This document shows, piece by piece, positions 1 through 55,705 of a stretch of DNA of 64,000 nt. Below the pieces are notes generated by a model. It was not told where the DNA came from. It saw only the letters and a list, made by a program, of their open reading frames with translations, and ran no database searches. The DNA comes from Flavobacterium weaverense (GTDB lineage Bacteria; Bacteroidota; Bacteroidia; Flavobacteriales; Flavobacteriaceae). The translations under genes and the position numbers were made by a program. How positions within the stretch are numbered: the first letter of the stretch is position 1; each line of letters begins with the position of its first letter. Where the stretch lies: positions 1 through 64,000 of the forward strand of contig NZ_REFH01000010.1 in assembly GCF_003688495.1 (NCBI RefSeq). The letters run 5' to 3'.

Positions 1-176
1 CTCATTTAAGAAACCTTTGGAGACAAGTTGTCTGTTATTATATTCTTTTGGAGGAGTACTTTTTTCTTCAAAGAATAGATGCATTTTCTCTTGTTAGATT
101 TTGGTGTTGACCAAATCAAAGTGTTCCACAATTAATTCAGGAAGGATCAGTTTTAAAAGTTCTATGTAATTCTCCA
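1..176 (-). pseudogene. Decayed N-terminal ORF of an ISAon1-type transposase (left-edge remnant)
   Basis: Read on the minus strand this stretch resembles the N-terminal partner ORF of the IS at 1533-1900: ELIVEHFDLV corresponds to EIIVEYFELI, and KEYNNRQLVSKGFLNE to KEYRPFKLSSKGFFDE. A stop interrupts it near the middle (after ...LVNTKI), so it cannot make a full product. It runs off the left edge of the window. It is too diverged from the 1533-1900 copy to be a recent duplicate. The family assignment rests on remembered naming of Bacteroidota IS proteins, not on a search. Confidence 0.6.
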
Positions 177-203
177 AAGCTTGTTATTTTAATCAGCTAA
201 ATT

Positions 204-311
204 AGGAAATCTTTCATTCCTTACCAACTTTTAGGATTGATCCCCCAAAAAGACTATTCAATGTCTTTTAAATTACAAATTGTTCAAGAAATTGAACAAG
301 GACAACTCACG
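204..311 (+). pseudogene. Fragment of an IS3-type OrfA (helix-turn-helix protein)
   Basis: An in-frame run on the plus strand includes IPQKDYSMSFKLQIVQEI followed by EQGQLT, with an ATG at 261. This resembles the start of the helix-turn-helix OrfA of IS3-family elements common in Bacteroidota. The reading stops matching at about 311, exactly where the first copy of the 225-bp transposase-end repeat begins. It is therefore a fragment of about 35 codons broken by another element. The IS3 assignment is from pattern memory. Confidence 0.5.
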
Positions 312-536
312 GATCATAACGAAAACCTGTGGAGTAGCAAAAATTAGGCATAGATGTTCGTTAGTCTAAACAAGAAAAATTCTATATTTCTCACTCCTAT
401 AATTGAGATCTTAAAGCTTTTATTTTGATATTGAAAGATTTCGCTGAAGCATTGGTACCTCTGTTGTCAAAATAGTTTAAGATTGTTTGATAATGATTCT
501 TTATTGGTCTAGATATTGTATTCAATGATTTAAACT
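312..536. repeat. Tandem duplication of the transposase 3' end, copy A
   Basis: This stretch starts gatcataacgaaaacctgtg and ends atgatttaaact. It is nearly identical to 537-762, differing at scattered positions and by small indels. The two copies abut directly. Copy A corresponds to the 3' end of the transposase ORF plus sequence beyond its stop, but is cut off from the rest of the gene. Confidence 0.85.
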
Positions 537-762
537 GATCATAACGAAAACCTGTGTAGTAGCAAAAATTAGGGATATATGTTCGATAGTCTAAACAGGA
601 AAAATTCTATGTTTCTCACTCCTCTAAATTGAGATCTAAAAGCTTTTATTTTAGCATTGAAAGATTCCGCTGAAGCATTGGTACTTCTGTTATCAAAATA
701 GTTTAAGATTGTTTGATAATGATTCTGTATTGATCTAGATATTGTATTAAATGATTTAAACT
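537..762. repeat. Tandem duplication of the transposase 3' end, copy B
   Basis: Second copy of the approximately 225-bp direct repeat. It is continuous with the transposase ORF and contains its stop at 569-571. The copies have already diverged by several substitutions, so the duplication is not very recent. Confidence 0.85.
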
Positions 763-1489
763 CAGCTTGAGCTACTTTTTCATGCCATCGAGCTAATTTA
801 CTTAGACCGTAAATTTTATCGGTAGTATTCTCAAAAACATTTCGTAAGTCTTGACATAGCTGGTATGCTTTTTCAATATCAGGATACAATTCGAATAAGA
901 ATCTCGCTCTTTCAGATTGGTTTTCAGACCATTTTGATTTGTTTTTATATAAGATATAACGGCTTCTAGCTAATAGTTGCTTAATGGTATCACCGTTTGA
1001 TAGTATTTTGGGTTCGAATTTAGTTTTTGTGAATTTAGCTTTTTCAATAGCATCATTCTCGATGTCAATTGCTTGCCATCTATATTTAATCCTGATTTCT
1101 TGTAAAGCTTCGAGCGCTAGTTTTTGGACATGGAATCGGTCCGTAACTCTTACTGCATTAGAAAAGCATTTCTTAGCAATAAGACCCATGTTAGCCGCCA
1201 TATCGAGTGTTATTTCAGTAACTGAATTCCTTAGTTTTAATGGTATTTTTTCTAGTATAGCAATTACTGTTTCTGCTTTGGTTCCAGCAATCATGGCTAC
1301 TATAGTTCCCTTTCTACCTTTGCCAGCTTTATTGGTTACAATAGTATAGAGTTCGCCATTAGAGAGAGACGTTTCATCTATTGATAATCTTTTTCCAATG
1401 TTTTCAGGAAAAATAAGCCATTGTTTTGCGTGCGACTTTTGTTTCCAAGCTTTAAAATCACTTAGGTAATCTTTGTACTGATATTGCAA
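569..1489 (-). CDS. DDE transposase of an ISAon1-type (ISL3-like) insertion sequence
   Basis: This ORF encodes 306 residues of an IS transposase that would cut and rejoin the element's ends. Visible signatures of an ISL3-like DDE fold are an early Asp in LSIDETSLSNGELYTIV, a second Asp in EITLDMAANM, the VTDRFHVQKLA segment, and a late Glu in NASAESFNAKIKAFR. The frame stays open upstream of the ATG at 1489 to about 1550 (SFYGVSGRNLQYQYKDY), overlapping the partner ORF at 1533. The two ORFs may therefore be made as one protein through frameshifting, or the upstream part may be a separate small ORF, as in RefSeq ISAon1 annotations. The catalytic region looks intact. Because the partner ORF is frameshifted and the 3' end is duplicated, the element is probably inactive. 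Confidence 0.8.
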   Translation of the reverse strand: MQYQYKDYLSDFKAWKQKSHAKQWLIFPENIGKRLSIDETSLSNGELYTIVTNKAGKGRKGTIVAMIAGTKAETVIAILEKIPLKLRNSVTEITLDMAANMGLIAKKCFSNAVRVTDRFHVQKLALEALQEIRIKYRWQAIDIENDAIEKAKFTKTKFEPKILSNGDTIKQLLARSRYILYKNKSKWSENQSERARFLFELYPDIEKAYQLCQDLRNVFENTTDKIYGLSKLARWHEKVAQAEFKSFNTISRSIQNHYQTILNYFDNRSTNASAESFNAKIKAFRSQFRGVRNIEFFLFRLSNIYP

Positions 1490-1532
1490 ATTTCTTCCTG
1501 AAACCCCATAGAAAGAGGCTATAGCTTTACAA

Positions 1533-1900
1533 TTATTTGGGTTGGAATCTATTGATCTCTTTTAAAAAAGACGCAAACTCCTGTGTTACACGAGTTCCGT
1601 CAGCTACTAAATTCCAATCTCTAAAAACTACTTTTCCAGTGTCTTCGTTCAGCCATCTTCTTCGAGTAATATGCAGGTATACTTGATGTCCACGAATAGG
1701 AAAATCCTGAACAGTTATCTCATCAAAGAAGCCTTTTGAACTTAATTTAAAAGGTCTGTATTCTTTGGGAATCGAATTAATCTCTTTTAGATACAAATGA
1801 AGTATCTCCTCTTCCTTTTTTTATAAGAAATCAATTCAAAGTATTCAACAATTATTTCGGGTAGTTGTAGCTTGATTAGTTCGCTGTAGAAATCTTGCAT
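1533..1900 (-). pseudogene. N-terminal region ORF of the ISAon1-type transposase, frameshifted
   Basis: The open part (1533-1796) has no ATG at its 5' end, only a TTG. The natural start is the ATG at 1900, giving MQDFYSELIKLQLPEIIVEYF and so on to ISYKK. That frame then hits a stop near 1782. The KEEEILHLYLKEI frame that continues to 1533 is entered only by shifting one base inside the T run at about 1815-1822. The gene is therefore a frameshifted form of a protein of about 120 residues. The indel lies in a homopolymer, so a sequencing error is possible. The downstream partner is the DDE transposase at 569-1489. Confidence 0.7.
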
Positions 1901-2016
1901 TTGCTATAATTTGGAATTACAAATATCTAGATTTTAATATTTCCACACAACAATATGTATTGATTCCCGTTCAGCCCAAAAAGTATACAGATAGTGTGGC
2001 AGTCGGTAGTGCTGTA
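1901..2016. other. IS-flanking sequence with no recognisable gene
   Basis: This is the stretch between the intact-looking IS and the next IS remnant. It is AT-rich with no coding frame. It should contain the left terminus of the IS, but I could not identify a matching terminal inverted repeat by eye. Confidence 0.4.
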
Positions 2017-2375
2017 ATCTATTAATTTCTTTTAAAAAAGCCGAAAATTATTCAGTCATGCGGGTTGCTTTTGCAACTAAAGTCCAGTCTCATTTAATAA
2101 TTTCTTCAGTGGTCTTATTGGTGCAGTGGCGTCTTTTGAAATGAAAATACACAAACTTACCTCTTACAGGAAAATCCTAAATGGTAATTTAATCAAGAAA
2201 TCTTTTTGATATTAATTCAAGAGTATTGAATTTTTTTGGAGGCTTTATTTTTTCCTAAAAAGACAGGTGCAGTATTTCTTCTTTGTCATTAGCAGAAACC
2301 ACATCAAAATGGTCAATTAAAAAACCAAGTAACATAAATTTCAAAAGCTCTGTAGAAGTCAGCTCAAATTTTTTA
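2017..2375 (-). pseudogene. Second decayed copy of the ISAon1-type N-terminal ORF
   Basis: The minus-strand translation reads STELLKFMLLGFLIDHFDV, then NDKEEILHLFF, parallel to SELIKLQLPEIIVEYFEL and KEEEILHLYL in the ORF at 1533-1900. At DNA level the stretch at about 2017-2060 (attaatttcttttaaaaaag) matches the end of that ORF at about 1549. Several in-frame stops and shifts make it non-functional. The copies differ enough to come from separate insertions of related elements. No transposase downstream partner remains beside it. Confidence 0.65.
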
Positions 2376-2427
2376 ATCGACAAATTTCTAACTTTTTTTA
2401 ACATTCCTCTCCATGTTTTATTCTTGA

Positions 2428-4053
2428 TCCATTATAACAGATGCTGAAACGGTCTTTAACTTTGCACAGGTTTTAAAATCTAATGGTAAACACGAAGAAT
2501 CAGAGCGCGAAATGAAATTATTCTGTTCTCTGCTACCAAATGATAATAGAGCGTTAAAATTCAATCAAAATTCATGCTATTTACAAAAAATAAAAAGTGC
2601 TGATCAGATGTTTGAAGTCAAGAAAATGACAATCAATTCTAATAAATCTGATTTTGGTGCAGTGCTTTATGATGACATTCTTTATTTCGTGAGTGCTAGA
2701 AAGCAGAGTGCTAAGTTATATAAACGCACTAACGAGCCATTTCTAGACCTATATCAATCGCTTTATAATTACAGTGATGAAACCTTCTCTCAACCATTAT
2801 CGTTATCAGAATTGAACACATCTTATCACGAAGGACCAGTTACAATTAGCAGCGATGGAATGACTATGTATTTTTCTAGCGAAAGTTTCAACGATAAATT
2901 AATTGTAAAAGATGACGCTAATAAATTAAAATACGGACAAGTTAATTTGTTTAAGGCTCCCAAAATTCATGGAAAATGGACTTCAATTGTAGCCGTTCCA
3001 TTTAATAGTAAGTATTATTTAACTGGGAATCCTGCAATAAACAAGGATGGAAACGTTCTGCATTTTGCATCAAATATGCCCGGTTCTATCGGAGGAACAG
3101 ATATATGGAAAGTAGATATTAATTCTGATGTAAGTTTTGGCACAGCGCAAAATATTGGTGATAAAATTAATACTGTAGGTAATGAGAATTTCCCTTTTAT
3201 ATCAGATGATGATGTACATTACTTTTCTTCCAACGGTTTAAGTGGATTTGGTGGTTTAGATGTTTTTTGGTTTGATAGTAATGTAAGTGATAATTCGATA
3301 AATCTAGGAATTCCAATTAATAGCGAAAAAGATGATTTTGCATTTACATTTAATAAAAATAGAAACTTCGGTTTTTTATCTAGTAACAGGTCGGGATTAG
3401 ATGACTTATACAATGTAGTTCCCTTGTGTAAATCAGAAGTAACTGTGGTTGTGAAAAATTCAAAAACTGGAGCTTTTTTGGCAAATTCAAATGTTACGTT
3501 CTTAAATTCAAATAAAACCAGTGTCGAATCTCAAATAACAAATAATAAAGGTGAAGTGATATATAAGAGTTCATGTGAAAAACAATTTACGATTGTAGTT
3601 TATAAAGATGGATTTATGCGTAATGCAGACTCGTTGTTAATCAATACCAATGGAATGCAGAAAATGGAGATATCGCTTGATCCTCTTGCATTAACGATAA
3701 CAGAAAACGAAATAGAATTAAATGCAATTTACTTCGAATTCAATAAAAGTGAGATTACTCCTGAAGTTGCTGCAGAATTAGATAAGCTAGCTTATATAAT
3801 GGCTCAGAATAAAAAATTAAATATTTTAATAAAATCACATACCGATAATGTGGGAAATGAAAAATATAATTTAAATCTCTCTCAAAAAAGAGCTAATTCT
3901 ACATTAGAGTATCTTATTTCAAAAGGAATTGCTGTACATCGATTAGAAGCTAAAGGTTTTGGCGAATCAGAACCTAAAGTGAATTGTAATGATAATTGCT
4001 CTGATGCTGATCACGCAATGAATAGACGATTAGAGTTTATCATTATAAAGTAA
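2428..4053 (+). pseudogene. OmpA-family protein with PD40 repeats, N-terminally truncated
   Basis: The product resembles the Bacteroidota OmpA/PD40 proteins of about 600-700 residues: signal peptide, TPR repeats, WD40-like beta-propeller repeats, a regulatory Ig-like segment, then a peptidoglycan-binding OmpA domain. Visible here are propeller strands (GPVTISSDGMTMYFSS, NPAINKDGNVLHFAS, FPFISDDDVHYFSS), a CarboxypepD_reg-like middle (about 300-370), and a C-terminal OmpA domain (IYFEFNKSEITPE, LIKSHTDNVGN, NRRLEFIII). There is no signal peptide. The first ATG is at 2512, but the frame is open back to 2428 and encodes DAETVFNFAQVLKSNGKHEE, the tail of a TPR typical of intact relatives. A stop at 2425-2427 and IS debris precede it. 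The 5' end was probably removed by IS activity. A terminator follows it. Confidence 0.8.
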
Positions 4054-4108: not shown

Positions 4109-4690
4109 TTATCCGTGCACTGTTTCGTTCTTACCGTATTTTACAATAATTGAAGTTTCAAACTCAATCCATTCTTGCCATCTTTTATCCACATCCACAT
4201 TATCTGCATATTTCCTCGCAAAACCAATAAAAGTAGTGTAGTGGCCCGCTTCACTAATCATCAAGTCACGGTAGAATTTGGCTAATTCCGCATCTTTTAT
4301 ATTTTCCGAAAGAACCTTAAATCGTTCGCAACTTCTCGCCTCAATCATTGCCGAGAATAATAAACGATCGCAGAGTGCATCTTTTCGGCTACCATCTTTT
4401 TTCATGAACTTAAAAAGCTCATTGACATAATGGTCTTTTCGCTCTCTTCCTAAAGTAAGTCCTTTGCTTTTGATTAACTCGTGTACTAACTGCAGGTGAT
4501 CTAATTCCTCTTTAGCGATAATTAACATTTCTGTTACTAATTCTTCTAACTCTGAATTATAAGTAACAATACTTATTGCATTTGACGCTGCTTTTTGCTC
4601 GCACCATGCGTGGTCAGTCAATATTTCTTCAATATTTGATTCAACTATATTTACCCATCTTGGGTCGGTGGCTAATTTTAGTCCTAACAT
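4109..4690 (-). CDS. miaE: tRNA-(ms2io6A)-hydroxylase MiaE
   Basis: This 193-residue protein is a ferritin-like di-iron enzyme that hydroxylates the isopentenyl side chain of ms2i6A at position 37 of tRNAs reading U-starting codons. The MiaE signature is visible: early WCEQKAA, then EELDHLQLVHELI, then IEARSCERF, and finally ISEAGHYTTF. These supply the Glu and Glu-x-x-His iron ligands in the expected order. Length matches the family. It starts at an ATG with a -7 type motif 22 bases upstream. It is monocistronic, convergent with the truncated OmpA gene. Confidence in family is high. Confidence 0.92.
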   Translation of the reverse strand: MLGLKLATDPRWVNIVESNIEEILTDHAWCEQKAASNAISIVTYNSELEELVTEMLIIAKEELDHLQLVHELIKSKGLTLGRERKDHYVNELFKFMKKDGSRKDALCDRLLFSAMIEARSCERFKVLSENIKDAELAKFYRDLMISEAGHYTTFIGFARKYADNVDVDKRWQEWIEFETSIIVKYGKNETVHG

Positions 4691-5022: not shown

Positions 5023-6258
5023 ATGCAAACGCTTTTAATTCTAGGATTTGTTTGGCCTGAACCTAATTCTTCGGCAGCAGGTGGGCGTATGATGCAGCTA
5101 ATTTCGCTGTTTAAAAAGCAGGGATTTAAAGTGGTATTTGCAAGTCCCGCCCAAGACAGTGAATTTATGATTGATTTAGCTGATTATGATGTTGAAAAAA
5201 TATCTATTCTCTTAAATAATTCTAGTTTTGATACTTTCATCACGGAACTTAATCCAGCAATAGTGTTGTTTGATCGTTTTATGATGGAAGAGCAATTTGG
5301 TTGGCGTGTTGCCGAGAATTGTCCAACTGCCTTACGAATTTTAGATACTGAAGATTTACATTGTTTGAGACTAGCAAGGCAAAAAGCATTCAAAGAAAAC
5401 CGTGAATTTAAGACTACAGATTTATTAAAGCAAGAGGTTGCAAAAAGAGAAATTGCAAGTATTTTACGTTGTGATTTGTCTCTAATGATATCAGAATTTG
5501 AAATAGAATTGCTCAAGTCTACTTTTAAAATTGAAAGCAGTTTATTTTGGTATTTACCGCTTTTATTAGAACTTGATCAAGTCAGTGCTTTAAATAAGTT
5601 GCCATCGTTTGAGGACCGAAAGGATTTTGTTTTTATTGGTAATTTTCTTCATGAACCTAATTGGAATGCCGTTCAATATCTAAAAGATACAATTTGGCCA
5701 CAAATCAGGAAGTTTCTTCCTCAGGCTAATTTAAATATATATGGAGCTTATCCGTCGCAAAAAGTTCTGCAATTAAATAATACAAGGGAAGGTTTCTTAA
5801 TTAAAGGCCGTGCAGAAGATGCGAACGAGGTAGTTAAGAATGCTCGAATCGTTCTTGCTCCGTTGCGGATAGGTGCAGGAATAAAAGGGAAATTGTTAGA
5901 AGCAATGCAATGGGGAACGCCAAGCGTAACGACGAGTATTGGCGCTGAATCAATGCAGGGAGAATTAAATTGGAATGGTTTTGTTGAAAATAATCCAGAA
6001 GCTTTTGCAAATAAAGCGGTTCAATTGTATCAAGATGAAAAACTTTGGCTAGATGCTCAGAAAAATGGAAACTTGATTATACAGCAACGCTATTTAAGAT
6101 CCTTATTTGAAGATGATTTTAAAAATCGAATTAATGAAATGATTACTAATCTTGAGGATCATCGCTTAAATAACTTTATAGGTGAGTTGTTGCAACATCA
6201 TACCTTAAGGAGTACTAAGTATATGTCAAAGTGGATTGAGGAGAAAAATAAGTTGTAG
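5023..6258 (+). CDS. Glycosyltransferase (GT-B fold, family 4-like)
   Basis: This protein of about 411 residues is predicted to move a sugar from a nucleotide-sugar donor to an unknown acceptor. The N-terminal half begins with a Rossmann strand (LLILGFVWPEPNSSAAGGR). The C-terminal half carries the donor-binding part of glycosyl transferases group 1: FIGNFLHEPNWNAVQYL, then ARIVLAPLRIGAGIKGKL followed by LEAMQWGTP. I chose the ATG at 5023 because the frame upstream has only a TTG and non-conserved residues. No signal peptide or membrane segment is seen, so it should be cytoplasmic. It stands alone, flanked by inverted copies of an intergenic repeat, and is not inside a polysaccharide cluster. 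The substrate cannot be named. Confidence 0.85.
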   Translation: MQTLLILGFVWPEPNSSAAGGRMMQLISLFKKQGFKVVFASPAQDSEFMIDLADYDVEKISILLNNSSFDTFITELNPAIVLFDRFMMEEQFGWRVAENCPTALRILDTEDLHCLRLARQKAFKENREFKTTDLLKQEVAKREIASILRCDLSLMISEFEIELLKSTFKIESSLFWYLPLLLELDQVSALNKLPSFEDRKDFVFIGNFLHEPNWNAVQYLKDTIWPQIRKFLPQANLNIYGAYPSQKVLQLNNTREGFLIKGRAEDANEVVKNARIVLAPLRIGAGIKGKLLEAMQWGTPSVTTSIGAESMQGELNWNGFVENNPEAFANKAVQLYQDEKLWLDAQKNGNLIIQQRYLRSLFEDDFKNRINEMITNLEDHRLNNFIGELLQHHTLRSTKYMSKWIEEKNKL

Positions 6259-6278
6259 AATCTTAAATTGTTGCTTTT

Positions 6279-6385
6279 GCGTGAGGGATGGAAGTGGCAT
6301 CCTTTTATGAAATGCAATGGAATAAAAGATATAGCGTACAGCCCGACCGAACTGAAACAATAGTGAAAGCGAGGACACGCCCAAA
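6279..6385. repeat. Interspersed intergenic repeat, copy 2 (right of the glycosyltransferase)
   Basis: It starts gcgtgagggat and ends cacgcccaaa, the reverse complement of the ends of copy 1 at 4772-4920. Internal blocks (gatatag, cagcccgac, gcgaggac) are also shared, in part. The two copies are in opposite orientation on either side of one gene. Confidence 0.65.
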
Positions 6386-6443: not shown

Positions 6444-8105
6444 TTATGCAAGCATCGTTACTGGATTTTCAATATATTGTTTTAAAGTTTGCAAGAACTG
6501 TGCTCCGGTTGCGCCATCGATAGTACGGTGATCACAAGCAAGAGATAACATCATTGTGTTTCCTACAACTATTTGTCCATTTTTAACAACCGGTTTTTCT
6601 ACAATTGCTCCCACAGAAAGGATTGCAGAATTTGGCTGATTAATAATAGAATTGAATTCAGTAATACCAAACATTCCAAGGTTAGAAACTGTGAATGTGC
6701 TTCCTTCCATTTCAGTAGGTAGTAGTTTTTTGTTCTTCGCTCTTCCAGCAAGATCTCTTACGCTTCCACCTATTTGAGATAAACTCATTGCATCTGTAAA
6801 TTTCAATACAGGAACTACTAGTCCATCCTCAACAGCGACAGCAACACCAATATTCACGTGATGATTGATGATAATTACATCTTCTTTCCACTGTGAATTT
6901 ATTTTTGGATGTTTCTTTAATGCTAAAGCACAAGCTTTAATTACCATATCGTTGAAAGATACTTTTGTATCAGGAACGCTATTAATAATTGCTCTTGATT
7001 TCATTGCATCATCCATTGTCACTTCAACAACTAAGTTGTAATGAGGTGCAGTAAATAATGATTCAGCTAAACGCTTCGCAATGATTTTACGCATTTGCGA
7101 ATTTTTAATTTCTTCAGTTACTACTTCTCCAGCAGGAACAAATAATTTTGCAGCAGGAGCTACAGCAGCATCTGCTTTCGCTGGTGCATCAACAGCTTTC
7201 GGTGCAGCGGCGGCAGGAGTGAAGTTTTCGATATCGCTTTTTACAATACGTCCGTTCTCACCAGAACCTTTTACTTGATTTAATTGGATTCCTTTATCAC
7301 TAGCAATTTTCTTTGCTAATGGCGAAGCTAATATTCTTTTCCCGTCATTTGATTCTTCTTGAACTATTGGTTCTGAAGCTTTTTCAACAGTTTTCTCAGC
7401 AACAGATTCTTTAGTTTCATCAATCGCAGCGGTCTCTTGTGGAGCTCCGCCAGCTTTATAATTAGAAGGTATTCCACTTACATCCGTTCCCGCAGGTCCG
7501 ATAATTGCTAAAAGACTGTCTACAGGAGCTGTATTTCCTTCTTCTATTCCAATATATAATAGTGTGCCTTCATTGAAAGATTCAAATTCCATTGTTGCTT
7601 TATCAGTTTCGATTTCAGCTAAAATATCTCCTTCGGTTACACTATCACCTACCTTTTTCAACCAAGTTGCTACAGTTCCTTCAGTCATTGTATCACTTAA
7701 GCGTGGCATAGTTACTACTACGACACCTTTAGGTAAAGATTCTGATGTAGCTGCTGAAGTTTTTGTAACTTCCTCTGTAACTTTAGTTTCACTAATCTTT
7801 GTTTCTTCTTCTTTAGCCGGCACTTCTGGGGCTGATTTTCCTGATAGTAATTCAGAAATATCTTCACCTTCTTCTCCTATAATAGCTAATAAAGAATCTA
7901 CTGGAGCAGTTTCACCTTCAGGTATACCAATATGCAAAAGAGTTCCTTCATTGAAAGACTCAAATTCCATTGTTGCTTTATCTGTTTCAATTTCAGCAAG
8001 AATATCTCCTTCACTTACTTTATCTCCTACTTTTTTAAGCCAAGCCGCTACCGTTCCTTCTGTCATGGTATCGCTTAAGCGAGGCATTGTTATTTTGATT
8101 GCCAT
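6444..8105 (-). CDS. pdhC: Pyruvate dehydrogenase complex E2, dihydrolipoamide acetyltransferase
   Basis: This 553-residue core subunit moves the acetyl group from lipoamide to coenzyme A. Domains in order: lipoyl domain 1 (lipoylated Lys43 in ETDKATMEF), lipoyl domain 2 (Lys169, same motif), a peripheral subunit-binding domain (ILASPLAKKIASDKGI, then GSGENGRIVKSDI), an Ala/Pro-rich linker, and the catalytic domain with active-site HRTIDG (His526, Asp530). The two lipoyl domains are close repeats of each other. It lies six bases after pdhA and ends at a strong terminator, so the two are co-transcribed. An E1 beta gene is not adjacent, and E3 must also be elsewhere. A 2-oxoglutarate or branched-chain E2 is less likely given the pdhA partner. 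Confidence 0.93.
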   Translation of the reverse strand: MAIKITMPRLSDTMTEGTVAAWLKKVGDKVSEGDILAEIETDKATMEFESFNEGTLLHIGIPEGETAPVDSLLAIIGEEGEDISELLSGKSAPEVPAKEEETKISETKVTEEVTKTSAATSESLPKGVVVVTMPRLSDTMTEGTVATWLKKVGDSVTEGDILAEIETDKATMEFESFNEGTLLYIGIEEGNTAPVDSLLAIIGPAGTDVSGIPSNYKAGGAPQETAAIDETKESVAEKTVEKASEPIVQEESNDGKRILASPLAKKIASDKGIQLNQVKGSGENGRIVKSDIENFTPAAAAPKAVDAPAKADAAVAPAAKLFVPAGEVVTEEIKNSQMRKIIAKRLAESLFTAPHYNLVVEVTMDDAMKSRAIINSVPDTKVSFNDMVIKACALALKKHPKINSQWKEDVIIINHHVNIGVAVAVEDGLVVPVLKFTDAMSLSQIGGSVRDLAGRAKNKKLLPTEMEGSTFTVSNLGMFGITEFNSIINQPNSAILSVGAIVEKPVVKNGQIVVGNTMMLSLACDHRTIDGATGAQFLQTLKQYIENPVTMLA

Positions 8106-19973: not shown

Positions 19974-20095
19974 ATGCATAGAAATGTATAGTAACGGATC
20001 AATACATATAGTCATGGGGAAATAGTAAAATCTAGATATTTGCTTTTACTAAATTCAGTATTAAATAAAATTTTTTAAAGTTCAGTTTTATGAAA

Positions 20096-20141: not shown

Positions 20142-20219
20142 TGGTGGGCGATGAGGGGTTCGAACCCCCGACCCCCTCGGTGTAAACGAGGTGCTCTGAA
20201 CCAGCTGAGCTAATCGCCC
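20142..20219 (-). tRNA. tRNA-Val (anticodon UAC)
   Basis: The minus strand folds as a cloverleaf. The acceptor GGGCGAT pairs with ATCGCCC. The D arm is AGCTCAGCTGGTTCAGAGC. The anticodon stem CCTCG/CGAGG encloses loop TTTACAC, with TAC as anticodon. The T arm has GGTTCGAACCCC, and the 3' CCA is encoded. UAC reads GUN valine codons. It is a single tRNA with its own terminator and an upstream -7 motif. Confidence 0.95.
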
Positions 20220-55623: not shown

Positions 55624-55705
55624 AGCTATTCCAGCTATCCTTTGCAATCTTGCATGCCGAACACCGGCAATCAAGGATTTTTATTTCTATCTGGGCTATT
55701 AGAGT
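55624..55705. repeat. Member of the AGCTATTCCAGCT-type intergenic repeat
   Basis: It begins AGCTATTCCAGCT then ATCCTTTGCAATCTTGC, and includes gaacaccggcaatcaagg and atctgggctattag. The first block matches 44924 and, inverted, 32292-32269. It lies in the 424-base gap between rarA and the rhomboid gene. Confidence 0.6.

Follow-up and report, generated by a model that had tools for sequence, protein, structure and literature searches.

The window analysed here (the whole stretch of 64,000 nucleotides, i.e. bases 1-64000 of contig C4, whose base 1 is the contig end; the genome comprises 3.40 Mb in 15 contigs) carries close to its left edge a PorE-like gene that lacks its 5' end. With a probability of about 70%, we regard this gene as a young, non-functional 3' remnant of a deleted surface-anchoring triad, joined to the end of an insertion sequence (IS). 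The ancestral triad would have encoded (i) a large surface protein, (ii) a PorP/SprF-like shuttle and (iii) a PorE-like cell-wall anchor, the remnant representing the last of these genes. An IS-associated event would have brought codon ~86 of the anchor gene up against the left end of an ISAon1-family (ISL3) element; the preceding 85 codons, most likely together with the two upstream genes, would have been deleted, probably through recombination between IS copies or from an IS end. The remnant is presumably non-functional, since its protein would not enter the periplasm and would lack its partners, and the event seems to be young relative to the decay of the adjoining IS piece, which would account for the frame being still open.

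The frame at positions 2428-4053 of the plus strand is open throughout (541 residues); it is preceded by a TGA at 2425-2427 and closed by a stop codon at 4051-4053. The following features were distinguished within it:

2431..4053, plus strand: PorE-like gene lacking its 5' end, with a TPR stub, a beta-propeller, a carboxypeptidase-regulatory-like region and an OmpA domain (the open frame begins at 2428)
2512..4053, plus strand: longest ATG-started ORF (513 aa), without a signal peptide

Judged by its domains, the product is a PorE-like protein with a propeller and an OmpA domain. In Pfam, it matched PF00691 (OmpA domain; 72.6 bits, cut-off 27.2) and PF07676 (PD40 propeller repeat; 25.5 bits, cut-off 20.9), while the match to PF13620 (carboxypeptidase-regulatory-like; 17 bits) was below the cut-off of 32.3, in a region where the predicted model has strands. 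The alignment to the NCBIfam CHU_0125 OmpA model (NF053607) extends from profile position 85 of 639 to near the end. The scores obtained with this model (348 bits, cut-off 620) and with the NCBIfam PorE model (307 bits, cut-off 600) are below the cut-offs, as are those of the intact relative in locus L032 (401 and 348 bits, respectively). Only the last part of the N-terminal TPR domain is left. In the predicted structure of the remnant (mean pLDDT 80.6) the domains after this stub fold, whereas its residues 1-29 are unfolded (pLDDT mostly <50). An OmpA-type C-terminal domain and a beta-propeller are shared with PorE of Porphyromonas gingivalis, which, unlike the window protein with its score under the PorE cut-off, is a full-length T9SS lipoprotein. 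When the intact L032 relative, rather than the window protein, was used as the query, the best structure match was 6top (PDB label 'OmpA family protein'), which we take to be the structure of the C-terminal domain of P. gingivalis PorE.

Orthologues were sought in 40 genomes, including that of the host (39 with a match), and then in a wider set of 398 genomes (202 with a match at E 1e-120 or better). The ten that were aligned have 620-624 residues, a hydrophobic leader at the start and 53-60% identity to the remnant, which matches them without a break from residue ~86 to the C-terminal end (DAETVFNFAQVLKSNGK marks where the alignment begins). About 85 residues are thus missing, comprising the signal peptide and the greater part of the TPR, and the 3' 86% of the gene remains. 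At the junction the relatives mostly have K-Q-D-A-E-T and the window has I-T-D-A-E-T after another I; the start of the gene-derived sequence was therefore placed between positions 2431 and 2440. The IS terminus (TTGATCC, 2424-2430) accounts for the codon at 2428-2430 and for the in-frame TGA that precedes it. The first-pass annotation of this DNA had proposed a 5' truncation, with a frame open back to 2428, a first ATG at 2512, and loss of the signal peptide and of the greater part of the TPR, and our analysis agrees with it in all these points. It had also expected the match to end abruptly at about residue 170: the break is indeed abrupt, but its position is ~86.

The same annotation named intact homologues starting at the ATG at 2512 as the finding that would speak against truncation. 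No intact orthologue of this kind was seen among the matches listed in the 398-genome search, and the methionine at 2512 corresponds to an internal residue conserved in all ten aligned relatives. Among the matches listed, the relatives' open frames have at least 568 aa, versus 541 in the window; of the shorter frames seen in the 40-genome search, some lie at contig edges and some belong to more distant paralogues (six paralogues were inspected). When named genomes were searched with the remnant protein, no more than three relatives were obtained, all of them distant (33-34%). The genus does contain four PorE-like proteins of 520-527 aa without a TPR, so that the window gene might be conceived of as a natural form of this type with its true start at or near 2512. 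This is very improbable: all four start with signal peptides (hydropathy 2.6-3.5), whereas the window frame extends upstream of its conserved internal methionine into clear TPR homology. These four proteins are encoded at loci L156, L157, L159 and L160, that of L156 directly after a PorP-like gene. In addition, a PorE-like frame at L158 (1915-3973, genome G008), of 519 aa from the first ATG and without a signal peptide, lies 500 bp after a PorP-like gene, and possibly represents a second, independent 5' decay.

The region upstream of the remnant (1-2430) is mostly filled by four pieces of ISAon1-family elements and 67 bp of other sequence, in agreement with the earlier description of these 2.4 kb as IS remnants:

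1..243, minus strand: piece A, left end of an additional ISAon1-family copy that is truncated where the contig ends; 97% identity to the terminal part of contig C8
244..310, no strand given: spacer of 67 bp between IS pieces
311..535, minus strand: piece B, partial second copy of the right end of piece C (225-226 bp spacing)
537..1966, minus strand: piece C, near full-length ISAon1-family element adjoining the broken side of piece D (NF049917, 512.8 bits, cut-off 250)
1964..2430, minus strand: piece D, decayed remainder of an ISAon1-family element (its left-end third); 80% identical to bases 1-468 of the element of genome G127 (377 of 470)

The plus-strand translation of the 67-bp spacer may resemble the start of an IS3-type OrfA. 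In piece C the transposase ORF is open (330 codons) and the N-terminal ORF is frameshifted, as judged by eye; the piece also matches NF049916 (125.3 bits, cut-off 55). We inspected 14 ISAon1-family copies in four genomes (G127, G164, G060 and G172) and found the left end GGATCA in nine of them (the script placed the boundary elsewhere in the other five) and the right end TGATCC. The window copies resemble the family in their two-ORF layout, in transposase models above the cut-off and in the GGATCA...TGATCC ends, and differ from it in being partial, nested and decayed. Piece A ends in the GGATCA motif near position 243, and the left end of piece C has one extra base. One copy in G172 is flanked by the 8-bp repeat attatacc (by eye); the other side of piece D is lost. 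The first base of piece D (GGATCA...) is at 2430, directly against the gene, and the TGA before 2428 comes from the end of this piece. Homology to the PorE-like relatives starts within 10 bases of this terminus, and the cut thus placed supports the suggested IS-mediated loss of the 5' end, whether by IS insertion, by deletion from an IS end or by recombination between IS copies. Elsewhere in the window, a segment of ~50 bp (19993-20042, minus strand) with 87% identity to the IS left end was detected beside a tRNA (20145-20219).

The two sides of the junction are unequally preserved: piece D carries five nonsense changes in ~115 codons, compared with no stop or frameshift in 540 codons of the gene, where 19-23 nonsense changes would be expected under equal neutral exposure. 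The probability that all five would then fall in D is about 2e-4 to 4e-4, and a single insertion followed by neutral decay of both D and the gene was rejected. With this equal-age neutral clock rejected, we offer no date. The truncation may be younger than the decay of D, the stub may still be selected, or D may have moved while already defective. Recombination between IS copies is one way in which the junction could be younger than D's decay.

A young event is also favoured by the residues before the ATG, whose sequence gives no sign of longer decay. Residues 5-28, which would be non-coding if translation started at 2512, retain 54-67% identity to the relatives, and the codons from the junction to this ATG show a mean identity of 0.58 (0.70-0.81 among the relatives themselves), compared with 0.42 (0.55-0.63) for residues 29-60 and 0.57 (0.62-0.72) for the remainder.

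Two results, the far stronger decay of D than of the adjoining gene and a codon model without relaxation, count against a non-functional remnant. They raise the alternative that the truncated protein is still made (from the ATG at 2512 or from upstream) and is under selection, either in the cytoplasm or otherwise exported, perhaps for its propeller or OmpA domain. In the branch-model test omega was 0.023 on the window branch and 0.059 elsewhere (2 delta lnL 6.2, with saturated synonymous sites), and omega = 1 on the whole window branch was rejected (2 delta lnL about 150). There was thus no sign of relaxed selection on this branch in the codon model, in which the G060 branch had an omega of 0.124 (2 delta lnL 10.2) and synonymous branch values reached 27. 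Such signals may, however, predate the truncation, as synonymous sites are saturated and the branch spans all the time since the split from the other genomes. The OmpA domain is changed at only 2 of 46 otherwise invariant columns, a value equal to that of G060, but its branch is 1.79 (1.07-3.20) times as long as that of G060, and the whole remnant protein is changed at 25 of 194 such columns, against 0-12 of 169-181 in the relatives.

This excess of change appears modest, because somewhat fast change on the window branch is seen in the adjacent glycosyltransferase as well (9 of 174 invariant columns changed; 1-28 of 166-193 in the relatives). Relative to G060, the branch ratio was 1.53 (1.24-1.88) for the remnant protein, 1.37 (0.94-1.92) for the glycosyltransferase, 0.85 for PDH E2, 0.99 for E1 and 0.25 for MiaE. 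The highest ratio was that of the TPR stub (2.67; 1.51-6.05), no more than a hint of relaxed constraint. A strong acceleration of the remnant was rejected (Fisher test against the glycosyltransferase and E2, P 0.56; 0.03 with MiaE added). The position of G060 as the closest relative is uncertain, with a support of 0.94 in the PorE-like gene but 0.11 and 0.62 in two others, and the MiaE tree groups the window with G238.

No export signal was recognized. The highest 11-residue hydropathy near the N-terminus of the remnant is 0.48, compared with 2.5-3.2 in the ten relatives, and by this measure there is no Sec or lipoprotein signal peptide. The product should therefore stay in the cytoplasm, as had been predicted. 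No promoter of the form TTG-N17-23-TANNTTTG was found on the plus strand before position 6500. A de novo promoter was considered at 2457, where TANNTTTG occurs, and was discarded for want of a TTG at 17-23 bases; a scan for sigma-70-like promoters gave 13 sites, with 14.1 expected. The lack of a signal peptide and of such a promoter, together with a partner that was not found (see below), makes a retained protein distinctly unlikely. That selection preserved an anchor devoid of export signal, TPR and both partner genes as a novel protein of reduced length, its frame staying open during the decay of the IS responsible for the cut, is more doubtful still.

The gene order around the remnant was compared with 19 loci of relatives, using two synteny anchors of the window:

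4109..4690, minus strand: MiaE-like gene
5023..6258, plus strand: glycosyltransferase gene

The PorE-like gene follows a PorP/SprF-like gene in all 19 loci. In 17 of them PorP is immediately preceded by a gene whose C-terminal domain resembles that of the L033 surface protein; in L041 the surface gene lies at a distance of two genes, and L037 lacks one in the vicinity of PorP. The downstream order MiaE - glycosyltransferase - PDH E2 - E1 is the same as in the window in ten of the 19. The L032 PorP gene matches TIGR03519, and the L033 surface protein matches the T9SS type B sorting domain model. Based on this one family match and on the similarity of the domain in the other loci, the large surface protein is probably a type B T9SS substrate. 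Five of eight loci scanned have rRNA genes upstream of the surface gene; in the other three the contigs end inside or near that gene.

At the window locus, the PorP/SprF-like gene and the type B substrate that should precede the PorE-like gene were not found. The search for them was extended to the readable contigs of the same genome; contigs C10-C15 (six contigs, 11,015 bp) were read as N. In the readable part (i) no PorP orthologue was found (two queries; best match 40%, a paralogue on C7, compared with 75-98% identity among ten relatives), (ii) the missing N-terminus, which the first-pass annotation had suggested looking for elsewhere in the genome, was not found either (best match 35-36%, the C7 paralogue), and (iii) no surface-gene orthologue was found, the only matches being two ~40% identical stretches at the start of C8. 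With the upstream partner genes likewise not found, the loss probably extended beyond the 5' end of a single gene.

Three observations weigh against deletion of a whole triad: the triad is not universal (L037, L041), the match to a large surface frame at C8:120-1298 ends at a contig edge, and, with C10-C15 read as N and the window starting at a contig end, the missing part could still exist. The gene might then be split rather than deleted, with its 5' part, PorP and the surface gene lying beyond the IS cluster in unassembled or unread sequence. The window does begin inside an IS copy, and in several relatives, too, a contig break falls within or close to the surface gene. We nevertheless consider a split unlikely. 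PorP and 255 bp of the PorE-like gene would amount to more than 1 kb without a match elsewhere in the genome, whose completeness is given as 99.87% and whose smallest contig has 1,063 bp; no readable contig carries the missing part. The two stretches at C8:120-1298 belong to one frame of ~1,290 residues, which is cut off by the edge of C8; this frame pairs better with the end of C7, where complete PorP and PorE-like (646 aa) paralogues follow a surface gene that is cut by the contig end and has no start. The frames at the C8 start (L162) and C7 end (L043) are probably one surface gene of a paralogous triad.

Deletion of the triad, which we prefer, would have removed a known type of system. The published model (PMC9143113) assigns the retention of type B substrates at the surface to PorP-like proteins, and the link between PorP and peptidoglycan to PorE-like proteins. 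F. johnsoniae is described as having five operons that combine a type B substrate and an SprF-like shuttle with a PorE homologue (PMC12618676). These operons (e.g. Fjoh_3952-3951-3950) have the domain make-up of the remnant, and their order (surface protein - PorP - PorE-like) is that of the 17 relatives' loci; in the window, no more than the 3' 86% of the PorE-like gene was found, and its partners and export signal were not found. In the relatives, the gene probably contributes to fastening a large surface protein to the cell wall.

The case for gene loss is clear and fairly ordinary, and no account of this truncation was found in a literature search of titles and abstract openings. The locus offers a clean example of a Flavobacterium losing a surface-anchoring triad at a site where several relatives keep it beside an rRNA operon. 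It is also a warning for annotation, as a call from the ATG at 2512 gives a plausible 'OmpA family protein' of 513 aa without an export signal or readable partners.

In other genomes (G396, G377, G397, G387 and G386), two to three equally scoring PorE-like copies per genome were seen among the matches listed, some of them on opposite strands. For F. psychrophilum, PMC5808330 reports that the chromosome underwent an inversion between oppositely oriented copies of a three-gene region of this kind. Finally, two matches to the Flavo-1 RNA above the Rfam gathering score were detected in the window, at 6274-6352 (plus strand) and 55624-55701 (minus strand).
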